The notes beneath the pieces are model-generated. The model was not told the DNA's origin. It made no database searches and saw only the letters and a list, made by a program, of their open reading frames with translations. The translations under genes and the position numbers were made by a program. Positions 1 through 9,053 of a DNA stretch of 9,053 bases are shown piece by piece (the stretch's first letter is position 1; each line of letters starts with the position of its first letter). The stretch spans positions 1 to 9,053 of the forward strand of contig JAOTYS010000166.1 of the NCBI GenBank assembly GCA_029861795.1, written 5' to 3'. Source of the DNA: Gammaproteobacteria bacterium. GTDB taxonomy: Bacteria > Pseudomonadota > Gammaproteobacteria > Arenicellales > JAOTYS01.

Positions 1-711
1 GATCTGCGCATGCCTGGCCTCGTCGGTCTGTATGCTCTGCAGCATCGTCGCAAACGTATGATCGCCACACTTCGCGGCATCGGCGGAAAGCGCGACAAAC
101 TGCAAATTCGTAAATGATTGCTCTAGCCCCATGTTGAGCATAATTGCGGCGCTGGTTGCGTCGCGTGTGTGGGCGATGTCGTCGAGAGCGTGCCGCAGGC
201 TGATAATGATCCAGTTTTCTGTTTTAGAGGATTTGTGACACCAGTCGAAAACAGCGTCATGCTTGAGGAACTCGTAAGCGAAGTAAATCTGGATCTGCCC
301 GTGACGAATTTCATCGAGGGTACCGAACGTCGCCATATTGCGCATGCCAGGGCTTCTGCCGAAACGCGTCTGACGTGCGAAAGCCGATGCGGAATGGAAC
401 TCCGCCCAGCACACGGCGCTAAAGTGGAGCGCCAGCAGTGCCTTCCAGTGGGGGGATGCGTTCTTGAAGAAGTTCGCACGCGCGAGTGCCGCCTTCACGG
501 AATAAGCTCCAACATCCTTGTCACGCTGTGATTTGACGTAGTCCCGGTACGTTACCTTATAAGGCTCGTCAAATGTCTCCCAGGCCTCTAGAGGAATGTC
601 GAAACTGTTCGACATCGGTTCCGGGAACAATTCGTCCTCCGACACATAACTGGGCGTCCAGTTCGTTTCACGCGCCAAGTCATACCAGTCTTCCATCTTC
701 AGAAGCGCCAT
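1..711 (-). CDS. Soluble diiron monooxygenase alpha (hydroxylase) subunit, TmoA-like, C-terminus beyond the window
   Basis: This is the oxygenase subunit of a four-component toluene/alkene-type monooxygenase, which uses O2 and electrons from a ferredoxin/reductase pair to oxidise aromatic rings or alkenes in the cytoplasm. The frame runs open from ATG at 711 to the left edge, giving 237 of the roughly 500 residues usual for the family. It begins MALLKMEDWYDLARETNWTP, close to TmoA. All six carboxylate-bridged diiron ligands are visible: E104, E134 and H137 (DEIRH), E197, E231 and H234 (TDEARH). These are the same residue numbers as in toluene 4-monooxygenase, so the alignment has no net indel. 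T201, N202, Q204, F205 and Q228 are also kept. A GGAGG (721-725) lies 9 bases before the ATG. The pocket differs from TmoA as I recall it: A103 for Gly, S107 for Ala, L176 and L196 for Phe, A180 for Ile. Family assignment is firm; the substrate (toluene, phenol, isoprene, propene) cannot be told. The gene is probably the first of an operon continuing leftwards. Confidence 0.93.
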   Translation of the reverse strand, partial: MALLKMEDWYDLARETNWTPSYVSEDELFPEPMSNSFDIPLEAWETFDEPYKVTYRDYVKSQRDKDVGAYSVKAALARANFFKNASPHWKALLALHFSAVCWAEFHSASAFARQTRFGRSPGMRNMATFGTLDEIRHGQIQIYFAYEFLKHDAVFDWCHKSSKTENWIIISLRHALDDIAHTRDATSAAIMLNMGLEQSFTNLQFVALSADAAKCGDHTFATMLQSIQTDEARHAQI

Positions 712-1113
712 TGCATCTTTCCTCCGAGTAAGTGTCCGTAACGGCTCTCACCTTAGTGCAAGGCACGAGGCCGCACGGATCGTTAATCTGCGCGCTAGCC
801 AGTATAACGCGCGCCGCTCACTGCAGGTGTGAGGTTAGGCTCGTCACGCGCTGGGTATTGATCACTGCTAATCGGCTTGTCCATCAAAATGTCAATATCT
901 GGTCCGGATAAGACAGGGACTAATAAACAACTTGATTTCTACGAATTACCTTTATATCCAGGAAAAATGTTACGATAAATTATTTGTTGTGACAAGATAT
1001 TACCGTTTTTCGTGGTTCCGGCGACCATTTGCACCGAATTCGGAGAAAATGGCCAAGCGAACGGGCTGTGCAGAGCTTGTTGCGATAACCTTATATGCTC
1101 TCGCCGACGTCGG
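712..1113. other. 402-base intergenic region between stress protein and monooxygenase genes
   Basis: No convincing gene is present. About 910-1010 is markedly AT-rich compared with the flanks. It holds the best minus-strand promoter candidate for the monooxygenase (967-995). A second TTGACA-like box reads on the minus strand at 895-890 but lacks a good -10 partner. A perfect 10-base palindrome CCGACGTCGG (1104-1113) abuts the stop codon of the stress protein gene. A TACGAATT stretch (940-947) matches one half of the palindromes found at 1754-1770 and 1819-1829. No U-tract terminator separates the two minus-strand genes, so read-through from the stress protein gene is possible. Confidence 0.5.
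967..995 (-). promoter_or_regulatory. Candidate sigma-70-type promoter for the monooxygenase gene
   Basis: On the minus strand TTGTCA (995-990; 5 of 6 to TTGACA) is followed after 17 bases by TAACAT (972-967; 4 of 6 to TATAAT), within the AT-rich part of the gap. It would give a leader of about 250 bases before the ATG at 711. It is only a consensus match. No sigma-54 -24/-12 element of the kind common for aromatic monooxygenases was found on this strand. Confidence 0.3.
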
Positions 1114-1581
1114 TTAGGGCATCTCGAATCTGTGTTCCCCAGGCCTGACGGTGAGCACGGGACAATCGGCCATCCGCACGACCTTTTCCGCCACGCTTCC
1201 GACCAGGACATGGCTCAGTCCGGTACGTCCATGGGTGGCCAGGACGATCATATCGATCTGCTCTTCGCGAGCTTTACGAATGATCTCGGCAAAGGGATCC
1301 CCACTGGCCACCACGGCCCGCACCTGCAAATCTTGCTTCCCTGAACCGAGTACCTTCTCGAAATGTTCTCGAGCTTGCTGCTCAGTTTCCCGAAATATCG
1401 TGTCCAAATATCCGGCCGGCAACGGCATCGATTTTTTCTCCTTAAGCTCTTCGGACGTCAGCACATGAAGGACTACTATTTCGGAGCCGAATTTTTCCGC
1501 GAGGTCGGCCGCGAGACATAATCCCTCGTCCGAGTAAGAGGAAAAGTCAGTGGGTGCTAAAATCCGATTGAAGTTTCTCAT
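1114..1581 (-). CDS. Universal stress protein, UspA family, single domain
   Basis: This 155-residue cytoplasmic protein has the Usp alpha/beta nucleotide-binding fold. It opens with strand beta1 as NRILAPTDFSSYSDEGL and has the family helix around AADLAEKFGSEIVVLHVL. Near the C-terminus is the ATP-loop region ATHGRTGLSHVLVGSVAEKV, followed by CPVLTVRPG. The usual G-x2-G-x9-G(S/T) motif has Ala in place of the first Gly; the remaining HG...GS part is intact, so ATP binding is plausible but not certain. A more upstream in-frame ATG (1590) exists, but the AAGGAG at 1591-1596 touches it directly, whereas it lies 9 bases from the ATG at 1581, so the shorter form is preferred. The gene points away from the Lrp-type regulator and towards the monooxygenase. 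Its likely promoter (1748-1776) carries a palindrome in its spacer. The family has stress-protective or regulatory roles; no specific role can be read here. Confidence 0.92.
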   Translation of the reverse strand: MRNFNRILAPTDFSSYSDEGLCLAADLAEKFGSEIVVLHVLTSEELKEKKSMPLPAGYLDTIFRETEQQAREHFEKVLGSGKQDLQVRAVVASGDPFAEIIRKAREEQIDMIVLATHGRTGLSHVLVGSVAEKVVRMADCPVLTVRPGEHRFEMP

Positions 1582-1590
1582 AATTGGCAT

Positions 1591-1596
1591 CTCCTT
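1591..1596 (-). promoter_or_regulatory. Ribosome binding site that decides the stress protein start
   Basis: AAGGAG on the minus strand. It directly abuts the upstream ATG (1590-1588), too close for initiation, and lies 9 bases from the second in-frame ATG (1581-1579). This favours the 155-residue protein over the 158-residue one. Confidence 0.7.
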
Positions 1597-1747
1597 CTAG
1601 GCAGCAAGTTCGCTGGGTGGTGCCGGGTGGATTCAGGTCAGCAAAAGTTAGTGCAAAGGTCTGCGGCTGCCGCTCAGAAGGCCAAGCCCTCACCCGGCAG
1701 GTCGCATCACGCCGGCGCGCCAACTGTGTGGATCGTAGCCAGGAACA

Positions 1748-1776
1748 AATATATTGACGAATTTCGTCAAAGTAAA
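1748..1776 (-). promoter_or_regulatory. Probable promoter of the stress protein gene with operator in the spacer
   Basis: On the minus strand TTTACT (1776-1771; 4 of 6 to TTGACA) and TATATT (1753-1748; 5 of 6 to TATAAT) are separated by exactly 17 bases. Those 17 bases are the perfect palindrome at 1754-1770. A protein bound there would block RNA polymerase, so repression is the natural reading. The transcript would start near 1741 and have a leader of about 160 bases. Confidence 0.5.
1754..1770. promoter_or_regulatory. Operator-like perfect palindrome, copy 1
   Basis: TTGACGAATTTCGTCAA has two 8-base arms that are exact inverted complements around a central T (1762). It lies exactly between the -35 and -10 boxes of the minus-strand promoter, and its left arm supplies the -35 box of a possible plus-strand promoter. 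Its inner 11 bases recur at 1819-1829. The neighbouring Lrp/AsnC-family protein is the obvious candidate to bind it. Confidence 0.62.
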
Positions 1777-1782
1777 TAAATT
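1754..1782 (+). promoter_or_regulatory. Candidate promoter of the Lrp-type regulator gene
   Basis: TTGACG (1754-1759; 5 of 6) is followed after 17 bases by TAAATT (1777-1782; 4 of 6). The start would lie near 1790 and the leader would be about 160 bases. Because the -35 box is the left arm of palindrome copy 1, this promoter and the divergent one overlap almost completely and could not be occupied at the same time. Confidence 0.35.
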
Positions 1783-1818
1783 AATCGCTACGAGTTCTAG
1801 TCTTGACCTTGAAAAAAA

Positions 1819-1829
1819 ACGAAATTCGT
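1819..1829. promoter_or_regulatory. Operator-like palindrome, copy 2
   Basis: ACGAAATTCGT has 5-base arms around a central A (1824). It matches the core of the palindrome at 1754-1770 (ACGAATTTCGT) except for the central base. The centre-to-centre distance is 62 bases, close to six helical turns, so both copies face the same side of the DNA. Its last base is the first base of a TAGAAT box. Between the copies a degraded version, ACGAGTTCT (1790-1798), is centred about halfway. Confidence 0.5.
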
Positions 1830-1939
1830 AGAATCAGCCAGCTTGACTAGCCGGCTAAGGGTAAAGGTCTCGCTCATCGTCGATGGTGTGCCACAGGGAG
1901 GCGCAAGACCAAGCCATCATGCGAAGAGCGAACCAAATT

Positions 1940-1947
1940 AGGAGGAG
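1940..1947 (+). promoter_or_regulatory. Strong ribosome binding site for the Lrp-type regulator
   Basis: AGGAGGAG lies 3 to 5 bases before TTG 1951 and 9 to 11 bases before the in-frame GTG 1957. No comparable site precedes the internal ATG codons at 2035 and 2050. This supports the long N-terminal form with a non-ATG start and leaves the choice between TTG and GTG open. Confidence 0.65.
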
Positions 1948-1950
1948 TGA

Positions 1951-2601
1951 TTGCAGGTGTCGCGACGCATATCGTCTGCAAAGCGCAGCAATTCGAGTAC
2001 GACGAAGCAGAAATCGAGCGATACGGCACCGCTTATGGGCGGGCGAAGTATGCGGCTCGCTGAGGTTCAGGAGGACGCGGTTTCGTACTCTCCGATACCC
2101 AATATCGAAGGGCTCAATCGACAGATCGTAGCTATGCTACAAGAGGATGGCCGCGCCGCGTTTTCTTCAATCGCGCAAAAGCTAGGGGTCTCTGAAGCGA
2201 CAGTTCGCACGCGTGTCGCGCGAATGAGGCAATCCAATCTCATTCATTTCATCACAGTAGTTAACCCGCTGGCCCTCGGATATACGGCATGGGCAATGCT
2301 TGGAATTAAAGTTGCGCAAGGTGTGAGTGCTGATGAGGTCGCGCAATATTTTCGTGAGTGTCTGGAGGTTGTTTACGCAATGCGGGTGGCCGGCCGTTTC
2401 GACTTGCTCGCGGAGGTAGTATGCGAAGCTCCGGATGAACTGCGCGATTTTCTAGATACCCACTGCTACGGATCGAAAATGGTTGCCTCAGTCGAGCCCA
2501 TGGTCGGCCTCGGCCTCTACAAGAGTCTCTTTAAATGGGATAAACCGCTTGTCGCAGGAAACGGAAACAATCATGGTCATAAGCCACGGCGTAATGCCTG
2601 A
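1951..2601 (+). CDS. Lrp/AsnC family transcriptional regulator with N-terminal extension
   Basis: This is a feast/famine-type DNA-binding regulator, a family that usually forms dimers to octamers and senses amino acids or related small molecules. The winged helix-turn-helix spans about residues 53-100 (IEGLNRQIVAMLQEDGRAAF, then SIAQKLGVSEATVRTRVARM). It is followed by the alpha/beta RAM ligand domain, about 114-196, which includes AGRFDLLAEVVCEAPDELRD and ends GLGLYKSLFKWD. The family is usually about 150-165 residues; this form has 216 because of a Ser/Arg/Lys-rich extension of about 50 residues before the helix-turn-helix and a basic tail. The start is TTG 1951 or GTG 1957, both served by AGGAGGAG (1940-1947). 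The gene lies 107 bases upstream of importer 1 and faces the stress protein gene, so it is the likely regulator of the island and of its own promoter. The effector is unknown; a substrate of the neighbouring importers or hydrolase is an inference. Confidence 0.9.
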   Translation: MQVSRRISSAKRSNSSTTKQKSSDTAPLMGGRSMRLAEVQEDAVSYSPIPNIEGLNRQIVAMLQEDGRAAFSSIAQKLGVSEATVRTRVARMRQSNLIHFITVVNPLALGYTAWAMLGIKVAQGVSADEVAQYFRECLEVVYAMRVAGRFDLLAEVVCEAPDELRDFLDTHCYGSKMVASVEPMVGLGLYKSLFKWDKPLVAGNGNNHGHKPRRNA

Positions 2602-2708
2602 AAGCCATGAAACTTGTAAGCGATACTAATCATGAATCATATTCGCCAGGTTGCTGATTCAACATGGTCGCGGGCTCAGTTTGATTGTGGGATAACAGGC
2701 AACGAGTA

Positions 2709-3599
2709 ATGGCCATTCAAGAACAAGAGAGTGCGGCCCTAGCACAACCAGAAGCACATGAGCCTTCCGAGACGAACGAGAAGGCGGCGCTTTATAAACA
2801 ACCGCGCGAGAGATTCTTGGAAGTTCGCGGTACTGTTAACAAATATCAGAGTATTGTTTTAGGGCTCATCGGTGTGATCGCGTTTTTCGGGGTATGGGAG
2901 ATTTTTCATTACCTTACGCCTGAAACCCAGCGGAAGTTCTTGCCCAGCGTGGAGCAAGTCGTCGGCAAAATCTATAGTCTCTTTAAAGAAAAGGGTTACA
3001 TCGCCGATGTGGGCAAAAGCGTTTACCGTATTTATGTGAGTTTCTTTGCGGCCTGCTTGTTGGCTGTTCCACTCGGGGTGTTGATGGGTTCATTCGTCAA
3101 GCTCCGCGCGCTGATCAATCCAACGGTCGGCGGATTGCGCTATCTACCGGCCGCGTCTTTTGTGCCACTGCTGCTGGTTTATTTCGGGCCCACAGATTTC
3201 GCAAAGTTGGCTTTGCTCTTTCTCGGTTGTGTATTCTTTCTCATCGCCTTGATACTCGACAATGTGCTCGCAGTGCCGAAGGAGTTTGTGGAATCGGCTC
3301 AAACCATGGGCGCAAGTCGCAGTCACATCGTACTCAAGGTCACGTTTCGCGCAGCCGCACCGCAGATCCTGGACTCAATGCGAAACATGATCGCGGTGTC
3401 GTGGACCTACCTGGTGATCGCCGAGATCGTTGCCGCCACGGACGGAATCGGCGCTGTGATGATGCGCGCGGCCCGTTTCCTACATGTTGACATTATCATG
3501 GGCGGAATCTTGACCATCGGTGTACTCGGCGTTTTGACGGACATTTCGTTTCGTTTGGCGAGCCGTGTGCTGTTCCCCTATATGTACGCACGGCGCTAG
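2709..3599 (+). CDS. ABC importer permease, NitT/TauT (nitrate/sulfonate/taurine) family
   Basis: This is the inner-membrane permease of importer 1. The 296 residues begin with a polar, Glu/Ala-rich cytoplasmic stretch of about 45 residues. About six hydrophobic segments follow, near residues 48-68, 107-128, 148-161, 167-186, 227-244 and 262-282. The cytoplasmic coupling loop that docks on the ATPase is visible as FVESAQTMGASRSHIVLKVT (193-212), the EAA-type motif of SsuC/TauC-like permeases. An in-frame TTG at 2685 would add eight residues (MWDNRQRV), but neither start has a strong ribosome site; ATG 2709 is chosen as the ordinary codon. The ATPase gene begins 12 bases after the stop, so the two are surely co-transcribed. 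Members of this family carry nitrate, sulfonates, taurine, thiamine precursors and, in some bacteria, guanidine; sequence alone does not decide. Confidence 0.93.
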   Translation: MAIQEQESAALAQPEAHEPSETNEKAALYKQPRERFLEVRGTVNKYQSIVLGLIGVIAFFGVWEIFHYLTPETQRKFLPSVEQVVGKIYSLFKEKGYIADVGKSVYRIYVSFFAACLLAVPLGVLMGSFVKLRALINPTVGGLRYLPAASFVPLLLVYFGPTDFAKLALLFLGCVFFLIALILDNVLAVPKEFVESAQTMGASRSHIVLKVTFRAAAPQILDSMRNMIAVSWTYLVIAEIVAATDGIGAVMMRAARFLHVDIIMGGILTIGVLGVLTDISFRLASRVLFPYMYARR

Positions 3600-3611
3600 G
3601 GAAACGAACGA

Positions 3612-4460
3612 ATGGATCTTTCGCTGCGCAATGATGATCAGGCACGTCAATTAGCGATTGAACAGGGCCGTGCTTCGGGTGAGCCGCCGATTCGGGCAAA
3701 GCGTGTGACAAAAGAATATGTGGGTGGCAAGGTGGTGGCGCTCGACGACATTTCCTTGGATATCAAGGAGAACCAAGTGACTGCGCTGATCGGCCCATCT
3801 GGTTGTGGCAAGACCACCTTGCTTCGTCTTACTGCCGGTCTGGAATATCCGACGCGCGGGGGAGTCATGGTATTCGGTCAGCCTATCCTTGGTCCGGGCC
3901 CGGAACGGGGCATGGTGTTTCAAGCCTACACCTCGTTTCCGTGGCTCTCTGCGATTAAGAATGTTGAGCATGGAATGGGCATCCAAGGCATACCTAGTGC
4001 AGAGCGACGTGAGCGCGCAGAGCATTTTCTCAAGCTGGTTCACCTTGATGACTTTGCCAATGCGTATCCGGTGGAACTTTCAGGTGGTATGAAGCAACGC
4101 GTCGCAATCGCTCGCACACTTGCACAAGATCCTCAGCTCCTGTTGCTCGATGAGCCTTTCGGTGCGCTCGATGCACAGGTGACTTGGGAAATGGAAGAGA
4201 TGGTGATCGAGATCATCGAGCGCGAGAGTAAGACGGTGATCCTGGTCACCCATGACATTCAAGAAGCAGTTTATCTTGCTGATCGGATCATATTTTTCAC
4301 TCGACAACCCGGCAAAATTAAAGCTGATCTTGCCATGGAGTTCAAAGGTGGAAAAAGATTCCCCAAGAAGGAAGAGTTGCTTGCACACCCAGGCTATGTG
4401 GATATGGAAAAGCGCCTCTATCAGATGATGCGGGAGGAGATCCAGGGGCGCATAAGCTAA
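3612..4460 (+). CDS. ABC importer ATPase, NitT/TauT family
   Basis: This is the ATP-hydrolysing subunit of importer 1, acting on the cytoplasmic face of the permease. It has 282 residues and every catalytic motif: Walker A GPSGCGKTT (61-69), Q-loop Gln104 in VFQAYTSFPW, signature LSGGMKQR (156-163), Walker B LLLLDEP (176-182), D-loop ALD (185-187) and switch His214 in VTHD. The QAYTSFPWLSAIKNV stretch after the Q-loop is typical of SsuB/TauB/NrtD-like ATPases. There is no extra C-terminal regulatory domain, only about 50 residues after the H-loop region. An N-terminal 25-residue polar stretch precedes the first beta strand. The start at ATG 3612 lies 12 bases after the permease stop, with GGGAAACGAACG before it, a weak ribosome site consistent with translational coupling. 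Confidence 0.95.
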   Translation: MDLSLRNDDQARQLAIEQGRASGEPPIRAKRVTKEYVGGKVVALDDISLDIKENQVTALIGPSGCGKTTLLRLTAGLEYPTRGGVMVFGQPILGPGPERGMVFQAYTSFPWLSAIKNVEHGMGIQGIPSAERRERAEHFLKLVHLDDFANAYPVELSGGMKQRVAIARTLAQDPQLLLLDEPFGALDAQVTWEMEEMVIEIIERESKTVILVTHDIQEAVYLADRIIFFTRQPGKIKADLAMEFKGGKRFPKKEELLAHPGYVDMEKRLYQMMREEIQGRIS

Positions 4461-4507
4461 CAAAACCCTCCCATTGTTATCACTTACACATTAGAGGAGA
4501 TAGAGAC

Positions 4508-5614
4508 ATGACTTCGAAGGCCCAGAGAACAACGTGGCAATGTTTGCGCCATCATGCGCGAGTGCTTCTGGCAGCGTGTGCGATAGGCGCGCTCTCTATG
4601 GCGACAATGAGCACGGCAAGTGCACAGGACACCGTGAGGGTTGGTCATTTTAGTTGGCCCGGCTACGCCTTCTTGTACGTCAATCAAGAAAAAAATCTGT
4701 CACCGGATCTCAAGTTCGAATTCACGGTTATAGAAGATCCAGTACAGCTTTTCAGCCTACTTTCGACTAATCAGCTCGATGTTGTTTTTAGCACCATTGA
4801 GTATGGCCCGATAGCCGCGGCTGAGGGTCTGGGCTTCAAGCTTATCTCGTTATCAAATCTTGGCTATGGCTCAGACGACATTGTCGTGCATCCAGACGTC
4901 AAGACCGCGGCAGATCTCAAGGGGAAACAGGTTGCCGTGTTGGAGGGTGGTCTATCTCACATTTTTATGGGTATTTGGCTTGAACAGAATGGTGTCAAAT
5001 GGAACGAGGTAGAAATGGTGAACCTTATTGCGGGTGACGCGGCAGCGGCCATGATGAGCGGTCAGGTTGCCGCGGCAGAGCTTTGGTCCCCTTTTAACCT
5101 GCAGGTGCTAAACGATCTACCAGGTGCTCGATCGGTGGCCAATTCTATAGAACCTTACTGGCTTGAGAGGGCCCTTATTGCAGATGCCATTTTCATGTCA
5201 GATGAATTTCTTACGAAGAACCGGGACGTGGCGGTGAAAACTCTTCAGGCGATTTTCTCCGGCGTGGAGTATTGGAGAGAAAACGCCGACGAGGCGAACA
5301 AGGTTATTGCCGATGCAGTGGGTTTTACTATCGAAGATGTGGAATCCATTCTCGGAAACGGTGGCTTAACAAAAGTTATAGCGGATAATGATCCCAATGA
5401 TGGAACGCTCTACATGTACAGCCTAGAAGATACCGCGCAGTTCTGTGGTGTGGCTGAAGGGGATCCGCCGTTCGGACAAAAAAATGGCCAGATAAAGGAT
5501 CACTGGGAGCTAACAAATAAGTGGTGGGTTACCTTTGGCTTCATGGATAGCACCGTTGACGTAAGCACAGGCACTGACTGTGAGCTGGTCAAAGAGGCCC
5601 TACAGGGGGGTTAG
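4508..5614 (+). CDS. Periplasmic substrate-binding protein, NitT/TauT family
   Basis: This is the binding protein of importer 1, 368 residues with a Sec signal peptide. A basic n-region is followed by the core VLLAACAIGALSMATM, with likely signal peptidase I cleavage after Ala39 (STASA/QD). The mature protein starts VRVGHFSWPGYAFLYV, the usual first strand of NMT1/THI5-like and SsuA-like proteins in which the W-P/G-Y segment lines the ligand cleft. It continues through DLKGKQVAVLEGG and AAAMMSGQVAAAELWSPF, typical of the family. Two cysteines in the C-terminal part (CGV and TDCEL) could form a disulfide. GAGGAG at 4494-4499 lies 8 bases before the ATG. The gene follows the ATPase by 47 bases and is closed by a strong terminator at 5676-5710. 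The ligand is not identifiable by reading; a guanidino or amine compound is suggested only by the ureohydrolase downstream. Confidence 0.93.
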   Translation: MTSKAQRTTWQCLRHHARVLLAACAIGALSMATMSTASAQDTVRVGHFSWPGYAFLYVNQEKNLSPDLKFEFTVIEDPVQLFSLLSTNQLDVVFSTIEYGPIAAAEGLGFKLISLSNLGYGSDDIVVHPDVKTAADLKGKQVAVLEGGLSHIFMGIWLEQNGVKWNEVEMVNLIAGDAAAAMMSGQVAAAELWSPFNLQVLNDLPGARSVANSIEPYWLERALIADAIFMSDEFLTKNRDVAVKTLQAIFSGVEYWRENADEANKVIADAVGFTIEDVESILGNGGLTKVIADNDPNDGTLYMYSLEDTAQFCGVAEGDPPFGQKNGQIKDHWELTNKWWVTFGFMDSTVDVSTGTDCELVKEALQGG

Positions 5615-5675
5615 TTAAGAAAGTACAAGCCTTGCAAAAACTGGCCGATTTAGGGGACTTTGTTCGCACTTGACG

Positions 5676-5710
5676 ATGGGGCGCAGATTTCACGCTGCGC
5701 CCCATTTGTT
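5676..5710 (+). terminator. Rho-independent terminator after importer 1
   Basis: An 11-base-pair perfect stem, ATGGGGCGCAG (5676-5686) with CTGCGCCCCAT (5695-5705), encloses an 8-base loop and is followed by TTTGTT. It lies 62 bases after the binding-protein stop. It implies that the ureohydrolase and importer 2 have their own promoter or depend on read-through. Confidence 0.85.
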
Positions 5711-5831
5711 CCCCATGATTACGCTGGCGTGATCGTTCATCCTGACCCTGGTCTACTCAGCGCTTAGACAGTTTGTTAAGTGGGGTACCACACGCCCGCG
5801 AACGTGACGATTTCGCCTGCCCCTGCTCAAT

Positions 5832-5919
5832 AAACGACCTGCTAAGAACCTACCACTTATAAGCAAAGATGTAGACACGCCAACGCCACGCCTCGTTTGG
5901 TGATATCCTCAGGTCGTTT
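5832..5919. repeat. 10-base perfect inverted repeat in the ureohydrolase leader
   Basis: AAACGACCTG (5832-5841) and its exact complement CAGGTCGTTT (5910-5919) are separated by 68 bases. The enclosed DNA contains the short palindrome CTTATAAG and a second TCGTTTG (5893-5899), 21 bases upstream of the one at 5914-5920. It could be the closing stem of a structured leader RNA or paired sites for a regulator. A chance repeat of this length is not excluded. Confidence 0.35.
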
Positions 5920-6052
5920 GATCCTTTCGGCGAACAAGGACTGAGATGATAAGGTTCGCTGGATTTCAATGAGATCTCTAATCGGTCAAACTGATAAGTA
6001 TGGTTTGGCTTGTATGTACCGACCATGATCATTCGGAGGCGGAGTAGCTAAC

Positions 6053-7057
6053 ATGGCGCATGACAGTTTTTTGACATATGGTAAACGCGAAGGCCAGAGT
6101 GATTTTCCAACCCATTTGATTTCCGGGATACCGTCGTTCTTGAAGGCCAATATTGTCCCACCGGTGGAAGAGAAACTCAGAGAGCAAGGGGTAAAGGCCG
6201 CGGTCTTGGGTCTGCCCTGGGAACATACTAATACGTGTCGGCCCGGGACCTCCATGGGACCACGAGCCATTCGTTGTGCTACGGACCACTACATCAGTCA
6301 TCACGGCGAGTTTCAAGTTGATTTATTTGATGCACTGAATCTTGTGGATAGCGGTGACGTGCAGATCATTCCCGGAAATGCTCGCAAGACTTTTGATCGC
6401 GCGGAGGAATGCATCATTAATATCGTCAATGCAGGGGCTATTCCTTTTGTTTTCGGTGGCGACGACTCCTGCCCGATACCGGTAACCGCAGCTTTGTCGA
6501 AGACATGCAGCAAAGGAGGACTTGCATACATTCACTTTGACTCGCACATGGACACGGCCAAGGATGTGGGTGGAGAGACACTCAATCATGCTTGTCCCGT
6601 GAGTCGCACCGCTGAACTACCCAATTGTAAGAAAGTCGCGCTACTAGGTATGAATGGGGCCCTGAATCCACCAGAAGAGCGCGAGTTCGTAGACCGACAC
6701 GGGATATTAATGTTTACGATTTGGGATATTGAAGAGCAAGGTGTTGATAAGGTTGCCGCGCAGGTTGTCGATCATATTTGGACCGACGAGGTCGAGAAGG
6801 TTGTGCTGCACACCGACCTTGACTGCATGGATCAGGCCTTTGTACCCGGTATCACTACACCTGAGACCGGTGGGATGACGCCGCGTGAGATGATTAAGTT
6901 CGTGCGAGCGTTCGCCCGCCGCGGAATCGACGCCTATGTCATAACCGAATGCAGCCCAGTATACGATCCAGCCAACAACGCCGCCCGCGTGGCGGTGCGG
7001 CTGGCGATGGATGTCATGGGTACCATCGCCAATCCCGAAGGCAAGGGCCGTGTATGA
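6053..7057 (+). CDS. Ureohydrolase (agmatinase/arginase fold) with GGDD in place of GGDH
   Basis: The enzyme has 334 residues. Its family hydrolyses guanidino groups, usually to urea and an amine, at a two-metal centre (Mn, or Ni in guanidine hydrolase). Family motifs appear in order: GTSMGPRAIR (65-74), GGDDS (135-139), DSHMD (163-167), the NHA segment with His179, TDLD with D255 and D257, PGITTPETGGM (265-275), and Glu299 in TECSPVYDP. D163, H165, D167, D255 and D257 supply five expected metal ligands. The sixth, normally the His of GGDH, is Asp138; Asp can bind metal, but charge and metal preference would change. GGAG (6041-6044) lies 8 bases before the ATG. The gene sits between two ABC importers, so its substrate is probably imported. 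Agmatine, guanidine, guanidinobutyrate and other guanidino compounds are all possible, and an inactive partner subunit like those in heteromeric metformin hydrolases cannot be excluded. The fold is certain; the substrate is unknown. Confidence 0.92.
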   Translation: MAHDSFLTYGKREGQSDFPTHLISGIPSFLKANIVPPVEEKLREQGVKAAVLGLPWEHTNTCRPGTSMGPRAIRCATDHYISHHGEFQVDLFDALNLVDSGDVQIIPGNARKTFDRAEECIINIVNAGAIPFVFGGDDSCPIPVTAALSKTCSKGGLAYIHFDSHMDTAKDVGGETLNHACPVSRTAELPNCKKVALLGMNGALNPPEEREFVDRHGILMFTIWDIEEQGVDKVAAQVVDHIWTDEVEKVVLHTDLDCMDQAFVPGITTPETGGMTPREMIKFVRAFARRGIDAYVITECSPVYDPANNAARVAVRLAMDVMGTIANPEGKGRV

Positions 7058-7151
7058 AGGCTGATAAAGAATTGCGCTATTCCTGACTGGGCGAAATCGC
7101 GCTAACATGGTCACAATCCGAGGCTAACAGCACCACGCAGAGGGGGAGAGT

Positions 7152-8240
7152 ATGAGCAATCCATTTGTACGAAGATCGATCAGCCGACGTTCATTTCTTG
7201 GGACAATGGGCGGTGTGGCTGCCGCTAGTGCACTGGGACCACGGTTAAGCTGGGCAGCCGACGAGCTTAACATCCTGGTTTGGTGTGATCACGCCGATCC
7301 CAAATTACTGCAACCTTTTGAACAGGCTCACAATGTTCGCGTAAATGTCAAAACCTACGAGGGCACCGGCACGGCGCTTTCAATTATCGAGCAGTCACAG
7401 CCAGGTGATTGGGATGTGTTTGTGATCGATGCACCCGACGTACCACAGGTTGCCAAACAGGGCTTGTTGGCGGCGCTCAACAAGGATGACTATCCATGGG
7501 ATGATTTGTTCGAGCAGATCCGCAACGCGCCATACAACTCCGTAGAAGGTAAGCTCTACTCAGTGCCGGAGAAGTTTGGTTATTACGGCATTGCTTATAA
7601 CGATTCTAAGGTCGATGGACCCGATATGAGCAGTAATGACGTGATGTGGAACCCGAAGTATAAGGGTCGTATGGCGGTGTACGATTACTACTTTCCGGTT
7701 ATCCAGATGATTGCGATCTCTTTGGGAATGAAACCCAGCGATGTCAACATGCAGAACCTTGAGGAAAAGATCCGACCGAAACTGTTGGAACTGAAACCGC
7801 AGGTCTCTTTAATCGGTGACATCGTTGGGGTACAGAACGCACTAGTGAGTGGCAATGTAGACATGATTGTGGCGGGTGCGGAGTTCGCTGTGTCAGTACT
7901 CACCACGGAGAAGCCCGAGCTGCAATGGACTATTGCGGAAAACGGTGGTCTGATCTGGACCCAGGGGCTCGCCATCTTTGAGGACTCTAACAAGAAAGAC
8001 CTTGCAAATGAGTTTGTAAAGTGGGTCATCAGCCCGGAAGGACAGGCACTGTTGGCCACATCCGACTGTTATTGGGCCATGCCCACCAACTCAAAAGCGA
8101 CTTTGACTGACGCGCAGAAGCAGATATTGCGGTGGGATGAACAGCCCGGCTTTTTGGAGAAATCCCACCTGTCATTCCTGACCGAGCCTGAGCTCGATTC
8201 GGCAATGCTAGATCTGTGGACTGAGTTCGTGCAGTCGTAA
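7152..8240 (+). CDS. Periplasmic polyamine-type (PotD-like) substrate-binding protein, Tat-exported
   Basis: This is the binding protein of importer 2, 362 residues, of the spermidine/putrescine class. The N-terminus carries a twin-arginine signal: SRRSFLG (11-17), then a hydrophobic stretch to about residue 31, with probable cleavage after LSWA (35). Tat export means it folds before crossing the membrane. The mature part starts DELNILVWCDHADPKLLQPF, as in PotD/PotF proteins. It continues with the family segments DWDVFVIDAPDVPQVAKQGLL and KLYSVPEKFGYYGIAYN, and near the C-terminus FVKWVISPEGQALLAT. GGGGGAG (7142-7148) precedes the ATG by 3 bases. The gene follows the ureohydrolase by 94 bases and precedes its permease by 18. 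Polyamine specificity is not assured: this class also binds other amines, gamma-aminobutyrate, choline-like compounds or opines, and acidic cleft residues cannot be judged without a model. Confidence 0.92.
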   Translation: MSNPFVRRSISRRSFLGTMGGVAAASALGPRLSWAADELNILVWCDHADPKLLQPFEQAHNVRVNVKTYEGTGTALSIIEQSQPGDWDVFVIDAPDVPQVAKQGLLAALNKDDYPWDDLFEQIRNAPYNSVEGKLYSVPEKFGYYGIAYNDSKVDGPDMSSNDVMWNPKYKGRMAVYDYYFPVIQMIAISLGMKPSDVNMQNLEEKIRPKLLELKPQVSLIGDIVGVQNALVSGNVDMIVAGAEFAVSVLTTEKPELQWTIAENGGLIWTQGLAIFEDSNKKDLANEFVKWVISPEGQALLATSDCYWAMPTNSKATLTDAQKQILRWDEQPGFLEKSHLSFLTEPELDSAMLDLWTEFVQS

Positions 8241-8258
8241 TCTTTTCCTTGTTGTACC

Positions 8259-9053
8259 ATGGCTGAGATCGCACGCCCCCCCATTCGGGGGGGCTTCGAT
8301 TTCTCAAGATGGGCGATAGTTCCCGCTATCGCTGTCACCGTTTTTTTCTTTGTCGTACCGCTTGTCATTATGTTGCTAGTGAGTTTTTGGCAGCGGATTG
8401 GCGGCAAGTTGGAGGCGACCTGGACGCTTGCCAATTACGAAAAGTTCTTTTCCAGGAGCTACCTGGTCGATGCGTTATTCAACTCCATAGAAGTCGCGTT
8501 GGTGACCACGATAGTGAGCGTGTTGCTGGCGTATCCGCTTGCTTACATCTTGGCGTACCGAGTCCCCCAACGTTGGCAGCGCTTTGCGTTGATCCTAGCA
8601 GTATTACCGTTTTGGACTTCTTATGTGGTGCGGTCCTACAGTTGGTTGTTGGTACTTTCGGACAATGGGATTATTAATGTGGCGCTTCAAAGTGTTGGCA
8701 TTATCGATGAACCCCTATCGATGAGTTATAACCGTGGTGCCACGGTGTTGGGGTTTGTACACTTTTTCACGATGTTGTTAACACTCACTATTTATGCAAA
8801 CCTGGTTCAGATCAGTCCGTCTTATCGCCGGGCGGCCGCCGATCTCGGGGCCTCAAGTTTGCAGATATTCTTGAGGATTACGTTGCCGCTAAGTGTTCCG
8901 GGTATCGCGGTCGGCGCGTTTATCGCGTTTGTGATTACGATTGGGGATTACATTACGCCGCAGATCTTGGGCGGCAACACTGAGGTGTTGATCCCACAGG
9001 CCATTATGTTGCAGGTGGGTCGCGCGGCCAATTTCCCCATGGCGTCGGTGATG
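8259..9053 (+). CDS. ABC importer permease, polyamine (PotB-like) family, C-terminus beyond the window
   Basis: This is the first inner-membrane permease of importer 2; 265 codons are seen, open to the right edge, so the gene is nearly complete (family about 280-310 residues). Hydrophobic segments lie near residues 19-43, 76-99, 109-132, 161-182 and 213-229. The EAA coupling loop reads RAAADLGASSLQIFLRITLP (191-210), followed by the family segment GDYITPQILGG (229-239). The ATG at 8259 lies 18 bases after the PotD-like stop, but no Shine-Dalgarno sequence precedes it: the gap is pyrimidine-rich. A GC hairpin occupies codons 6-12 (8275-8294). There is no alternative in-frame start nearby, and residues from 13 on fit the family, so reinitiation after the upstream gene is the likely mode. 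A PotC-like permease and a PotA-like ATPase are expected to the right. Confidence 0.92.
   Translation, partial: MAEIARPPIRGGFDFSRWAIVPAIAVTVFFFVVPLVIMLLVSFWQRIGGKLEATWTLANYEKFFSRSYLVDALFNSIEVALVTTIVSVLLAYPLAYILAYRVPQRWQRFALILAVLPFWTSYVVRSYSWLLVLSDNGIINVALQSVGIIDEPLSMSYNRGATVLGFVHFFTMLLTLTIYANLVQISPSYRRAAADLGASSLQIFLRITLPLSVPGIAVGAFIAFVITIGDYITPQILGGNTEVLIPQAIMLQVGRAANFPMASVM
8275..8294 (+). promoter_or_regulatory. Strong GC hairpin over the first codons of the PotB-like permease
   Basis: G plus seven C (8275-8282), loop ATTC, then seven G plus C (8287-8294) form a perfect 8-base-pair stem with a 4-base loop. It starts 16 bases after the start codon's first base. The following CTTCGATTTCTC is only mildly U-rich, so it is a poor terminator but could cause partial termination, block translation start, or protect the end of the upstream mRNA. 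Confidence 0.5.

Follow-up and report, generated by a model that had tools for sequence, protein, structure and literature searches.

We found that an aspartate, D138, standing in place of a metal-binding histidine is a real, conserved variant of the ureohydrolase metal site. As judged from a tree of the sequences, this GGDD form of the usual GGDH motif arose at least twice. The protein concerned is encoded in JAOTYS010000166.1, positions 1 to 9,053 (the whole 9,053-nucleotide stretch of DNA analysed, here called the window), and is referred to as the window protein. With somewhat more belief than doubt, we regard it as a working ureohydrolase with a two-metal site, with D138 in the role of the metal-A His; an imported guanidino compound would be converted there to urea and an amine.

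The ORF lies at 6053..7057 on the plus strand and its translation, from ATG to stop, gives a GGDD-variant ureohydrolase of 334 aa. It belongs to the arginase family (PF00491; 209.7 bits against a curated cut-off of 22), and its AlphaFold model has a pLDDT of 91.7. Translation of the ORF confirmed that residues 135-139 read GGDDS rather than GGDHS, as a preliminary description had reported, with G135 G136 D137 D138 S139 encoded by ggt ggc gac gac tcc. The D138 codon, GAC (6464..6466, plus strand), is one base change away from a His codon; a sequencing error is very unlikely since homologues also read Asp. The other metal ligands named in that description (D163, H165, D167, D255, D257) are indeed all present, so that the usual residue is found at five of the six ligand positions (four Asp and two His in the family) and D138 replaces the remaining His. 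Also intact are H179 and E299, aligned respectively with SpeB's catalytic His and its guanidinium-binding Glu.

A search with the window protein gave 77 proteins (the query and 76 matches), 68 of which carry GGDD. GGDH was found in four, all at no more than 39% identity, while three lack the stretch and two are garbled there. Across a tally of 273 rows, Asp occupies position 138 in 192/192 GGDD rows and His in the 81 GGDH rows; proteins shorter than 255 residues were excluded from this tally, from the conservation alignment and from the comparison with solved structures. The copy at locus L018, from another genome (G487), is identical at 285/334 residues (85%). Between the two, dN is 0.11 (NG86) with dS saturated and hence undefined, which points to purifying selection on the window protein. 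Of the proposal that the site is specialised rather than decayed, what is upheld is that it is conserved and not decayed. Individual relatives depart from the pattern: P0052, itself GGDD, carries a deletion and lacks the Asp of position 163, and P0078 and P0068 are without H179. No characterised GGDD ureohydrolase was found in a literature search that covered few of the subscription journals.

We built a tree of 97 hand-picked rows, made up of 26 of the 77 proteins, further homologues (P0078-P0127, out of the following 57, P0078-P0134), and loci and named relatives. P0104, P0105, P0107, P0109 and P0111 (long or degenerate) were omitted, and no frame fit for use came from loci L008, L023 and L027. 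GGDD falls in two places on this tree and the label needs two changes; trees needing a single change made up 0% of 200 bootstraps, so the idea that GGDD proteins form one clade had to be given up. Clade 1, which holds the window protein, comprises 24 tree rows (support 100/100) and lies towards the metformin hydrolases within the family. Its nearest neighbours are the GGDH rows P0072, P0073, P0087, L012 and L014 (Sulfitobacter), a weak tie (82/64); clade 1, these rows and the metformin-hydrolase rows together form one supported branch (100/97).

Clade 2 has four tree rows (100/98), namely L020 from Paracoccus seriniphilus, L026 from Burkholderia arboris, P0117 and P0119, and sits amid GGDH rows in the D. 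radiodurans agmatinase branch. It is a large proteobacterial group: GGDD was present in 120/120 P0117-type proteins, these being the best 120 of 1639 matches with the query included, and the named proteins among this best 120 come from Betaproteobacteria/Burkholderiales or are called agmatinase. Clade 2 shares Asp at 138 with the window protein, and the acid at 296 is likewise lost in 121/122 rows, but it has its own origin and mostly carries Tyr at 179, Ala at 269, Ala at 253 and His at 300. The statement that other proteobacterial proteins named agmatinase carry GGDDS proved correct, with examples among the P0117-type matches and on plasmid loci. What had been described as a distinct and probably mis-annotated subfamily does stand apart, is named agmatinase in the sources and, for the window protein, scores below the agmatinase cut-off; it is not a single subfamily, given the two origins. 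On the P. seriniphilus plasmid (L020, 1205-5924) the clade 2 GGDD gene lies beside urocanate hydratase and an amidohydrolase, with an aromatic amino acid lyase further on, a gene content that suggests a histidine-like breakdown route.

Clade 1 was compared position by position with the remaining rows, and 138, 253 and 296 were then tallied over the 273 rows. In the window protein these last two are H253 (codon 6809..6811, plus strand), two residues ahead of ligand D255 and mostly Ser or Thr in GGDH relatives, and V296 (codon 6938..6940, plus strand), three residues ahead of E299. An acid (Asp or Glu) occupies 296 in 81/81 GGDH rows, 0/70 clade 1 rows and 1/122 clade 2 rows, although the rows are not independent and the co-variation rests on two or three independent events rather than on row counts. 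Clade 1 has Val (68) or Ala (2) at 296, and His at 253 in 67 of the 69 rows with a letter there, the other two having Gln. In clade 2 (122 rows including L020 and L026), position 296 is Asn in 77, Ser in 43, Gly in 1 and Asp in 1, and position 253 is Ala in 120, Ser in 1 and Thr in 1. All 120 P rows have Ala at 253 and none has His; instead, His is found at 300 in 105/120, with Tyr at 179 and Ala at 269 in 119/120 each. The single Asp belongs to L026, where D138 occurs together with D296. L026 is the earliest branch of clade 2, with weak support (97/33), and may represent an intermediate. From the co-variation we infer that 138, 253 and 296 are in spatial contact.

Eighteen extra frames from genomes G001 and G487 were also read. 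Fourteen are GGDH and all 14 have an acid at 296 (8 new, 6 already tallied); the others are L034 (a GGDD copy), L008 (GGVH), L033 (GGDG) and L037 (GGDC). L037, in a divergent alignment, shows His at position 253 together with Ser at 296, which favours a strict 138/296 rule. Both L008 and L033 have Asp at 296, and L033, having lost the metal-A His while keeping D296, speaks against such a rule. L033 (C112:150198-151025 of G487) also carries Cys at 253, lacks the Glu of position 299, and may be inactive or differently built. L037 (C85:84207-84824 of G487) is an arginase-like protein with GGDCC, closest among solved proteins to arginases and N-hydroxyarginine amidinohydrolase, and is a Cys-type variant of the same site.

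Other proteins bear on this metal site. DcsB presumably has Cys at the metal-A His place, and Asn114 of Trypanosoma cruzi formiminoglutamase is, we assume, the ligand equivalent to that His; judging by its title, a formiminoglutamase N114H structure is among our structure matches. D274 of human arginase we take to be position 296 (E277 minus 3). Arginase activity was reported to be below detection in a patient with D274N who also carried a nonsense allele (PMC7862390). In metformin hydrolase, Ala in place of coordinating residues abolished activity (PMC11271267), so the metal site does not tolerate every change.

The closest parallel is the Zymomonas mobilis arginase zmARG (6KSY), whose first motif is GGDCL and third HIDLDVLDP. 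According to its description, the first metal is bound by Cys92, which stands at the metal-A His place, together with three Asp and a bridging water; both metals are present, Mn alone gave activity, and His210 does not appear among the ligands listed there (PMC6988801). As in the window protein, the His of GGDH is thus replaced in zmARG and the 253 position is His; the enzyme is still active. It differs in having Cys instead of Asp, in being arginase-type and in lying outside the 97-row tree. On that account the metal-A His can be replaced by an anionic ligand, again with His at the 253 position, without loss of function. It also follows that D138 alone implies neither another metal nor another substrate, since zmARG with its Cys remains a Mn-dependent arginase (PMC6988801).

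It could be argued that metal A is bound by H253 instead of D138, because this His accompanies the loss of H138 in clade 1 and in L037 and stands two residues ahead of the bridging ligand D255. We consider such a relocated ligand very unlikely: the corresponding His of zmARG is not a listed ligand while Cys92 is used, two clade 1 rows have Gln at 253, and clade 2 has Ala there. H253, weakened as a replacement ligand by the Gln rows and by zmARG, may be a mere neighbour.

The same histidine has been studied in SpeB. Two papers report that H126 holds a weakly bound Mn and that almost half of the activity remains after dialysis against EDTA (PMC8125230), and that H126N lowers activity by 50% (PMC7313459). 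These observations would fit a one-metal enzyme, with site A empty or loosely filled and site B alone doing the work, a reading we hold rather unlikely. The other metal-A holders (D163, D167, D255) are conserved, Asp is kept without drift in every GGDD row of two clades, and zmARG with Cys carries both metals. Taken together, the zmARG and SpeB parallels make a working site the likeliest reading and hold down its novelty. Guanidinium contacts in SpeB are said to be D153, T244, E274 and H163 (PMC8049259). In our alignment these correspond to D167, T269, E299 and H179 of the window protein, so the guanidinium-binding and catalytic set is intact.

Among solved relatives, metformin hydrolase A and the guanidinases are nearest to the window protein. 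Metformin hydrolase subunit A (MefH alpha, MfmA, MetCa; 8snf, 8ryi, 8x3g), from the 100/97 branch, is the best match by both sequence and structure, but it keeps all six ligands and has His at 138, Asn at 179 and Ala at 269. In MetCa an Asn (N199) replaces the catalytic His (PMC11271267), whereas the window protein has H179. For its activity subunit A depends on subunit B as well as on nickel chaperones (PMC11399263, PMC11271267). No beta subunit gene and no HypA/HypB-type nickel chaperone was found among the seven scanned window ORFs or in the PotB frame. As the nearest solved relatives form such pairs, the window protein might be a pseudoenzyme supporting a partner subunit in the manner of subunit B. 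This is the least probable of the readings considered: subunit B, encoded beside subunit A, has lost four of the six ligands in one account (PMC11399263) and five of six in another (PMC11271267), while the window protein keeps five together with H179 and E299, and there is no ureohydrolase among the other six scanned window ORFs.

The guanidinase GdmH (7esr, 9fek) is related in fold and sequence and shares T61, H179 and E299 with the window protein, but it has His at 138, Glu at 296 and its specificity Trp at 269. Its specificity pair is given as T97 and W305 of the Synechocystis enzyme (PMC11410670). T61 of the window protein matches the Thr, but T269 stands where the Trp is expected; the guanidinases form a separate clade in the 97-row tree with the window protein outside it, and no guanidine riboswitch was found in the window or in L001, a contig of another, metagenome-assembled genome. 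On these three grounds a guanidinase of the GdmH type was rejected as highly improbable. Guanidine is an unlikely substrate because of the replaced Trp.

Two importers flank the ureohydrolase gene. Upstream (2685-5614), all on the plus strand, are a NitT/TauT-type ABC permease (2685..3599; PF00528, best NCBIfam match TauC, below cut-off), whose membership of the unit is less certain, an ABC transporter ATPase (3612..4460; PF00005) and an NMT1-type substrate-binding protein (4508..5614; PF09084 and PF13379, SsuA-type below cut-offs). These are preceded by an Lrp/AsnC-type regulator (1951..2601, plus strand; PF13404 and PF01037 from about residue 55, the true start probably lying after the listed TTG). 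A universal stress protein (PF00582) lies at 1114-1590 on the minus strand. Downstream (7152-9053, plus strand) are a PotD-type substrate-binding protein with a Tat-type signal (7152..8240; PF13416, PF10518), 50% identical to the PotD-type protein of L001, and a PotB-type permease cut by the window end (8259..9053), an open frame with 65.5% identity to L001 1958-2872. In L001, PotD-type, PotB-type and third permease-like ORFs lie directly upstream of the GGDD gene, so the PotD-type importer, adjoining a GGDD gene in both places, is a partner seen twice; its L001 PotD-type protein is the sole match in G001 at E 1e-30. The L001 GGDD gene itself (3797-4796) changes frame near residue 148, and the break may be genuine or a fault of the assembly. 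In G487 no PotD-type importer accompanies the GGDD copy, which lies 945 bases from a contig start, the best PotD-type match (33%) being elsewhere. On the opposite strand to that copy, L018 2027-8208 holds ORFs that on reading resemble a glycosyltransferase and two cyanophycin-synthetase-like ligases.

The window protein probably hydrolyses an imported guanidino compound. Taurocyamine, prompted by the TauC/SsuC-like importer, was considered as the substrate and searches gave no support. D168, E171, W229, W255 and D257 of E. coli PotD are, we assume, its polyamine contacts; a literature search on these roles found no matching paper. Aligned with E. coli PotD (8y5h), the window PotD-type protein keeps W255 but carries Tyr at the place of D168, Pro at that of E171, Val at that of W229 and Gln at that of D257. 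An assignment as a polyamine or agmatine importer was set aside on these losses, which hint at a substrate other than agmatine.

An ordinary Mn agmatinase, with Asp as a near-neutral substitute for His, would agree with the name given to such proteins in the sources, with the match to the guanidinium-binding residues of SpeB and with the adjoining polyamine-type importer. We nevertheless think it unlikely, since the window protein scores 164.3 bits against the NCBI cut-off of 174.3 for TIGR01230 (agmatinase), SpeB is distant in the tree, G001 has GGDH paralogues (L004, L005) that group with SpeB, and the PotD-type protein lacks several of the presumed polyamine contacts. The score for NF002564 is likewise below the cut-off (155.7 versus 302 bits). 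The substrate is probably neither guanidine nor agmatine. Urease is also present in G001, and no match to it was found in G487; ureohydrolase matches number 10 in G487 and 14 in G001, where some are fragments of a single gene.

The exact motif pattern was found in 1/398 genomes of the phylum sample, 2/385 of the class sample, 1/22 of the order and 1/1 of the family of G001, samples that overlap and contain G001. In the family and order of G487, each with a single genome, the hit is G487 itself. When 60 relatives of G001 were searched at the protein level, the hits were G001 and G409 (38% identity, GGDH), and viral contigs gave no match. On plasmids, 512 records match the window protein, with no identity of 60% or more among the best 40 of 512; three regions were read. 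The P0117 query matched 596 plasmid records, and the eight regions read comprised two GGDD (L020, L026), four GGDH and two without a usable frame.

Returning to the working two-metal site, a guanidino compound would be imported and cut there into urea and amine, with D138 standing in for the usual metal-A histidine. The first-shell His of ordinary members would be paired with an acid at 296; clade 1 would instead combine a first-shell Asp at 138 with a residue other than an acid at 296 and a newly gained H253, which would leave the charge around metal A roughly unchanged if 253 and 296 are situated around site 138. Mn would be the most likely metal. The importer beside the gene, the conservation of D138 and the other ligands, the two origins, the co-variation, L037, zmARG, the match to the SpeB guanidinium contacts and the human D274N case count for this explanation. 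Counting against it are clade 2 without His at 253, D138 with D296 in L026, D296 in L033, the two clade 1 rows with Gln at 253, the absence of His210 from the listed zmARG ligands, the loss of metformin hydrolase activity on Ala substitution, and P0078 and P0068 without H179. More tentatively, and with more doubt than belief, the metal-A His and its acidic partner may have been exchanged repeatedly for an anionic Asp or Cys with a His close by, the acid being removed, and the inverted pair of clade 1 may set a metal or substrate preference new to the family.

Why ureohydrolases differ in the metal they require is called an open question in one study (PMC11399263). The two natural His to Asp switches affect a single ligand and differ in the changes found near it; they provide ready-made pairs for a direct test, and L026, which retains D296 beside D138, is a possible intermediate for it. 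Since the sources call members of both GGDD groups agmatinase, a number of the annotations in environmental genomes may be wrong. For the family, GGDD is a variant with at least two origins, and zmARG is the known precedent for replacing this His.
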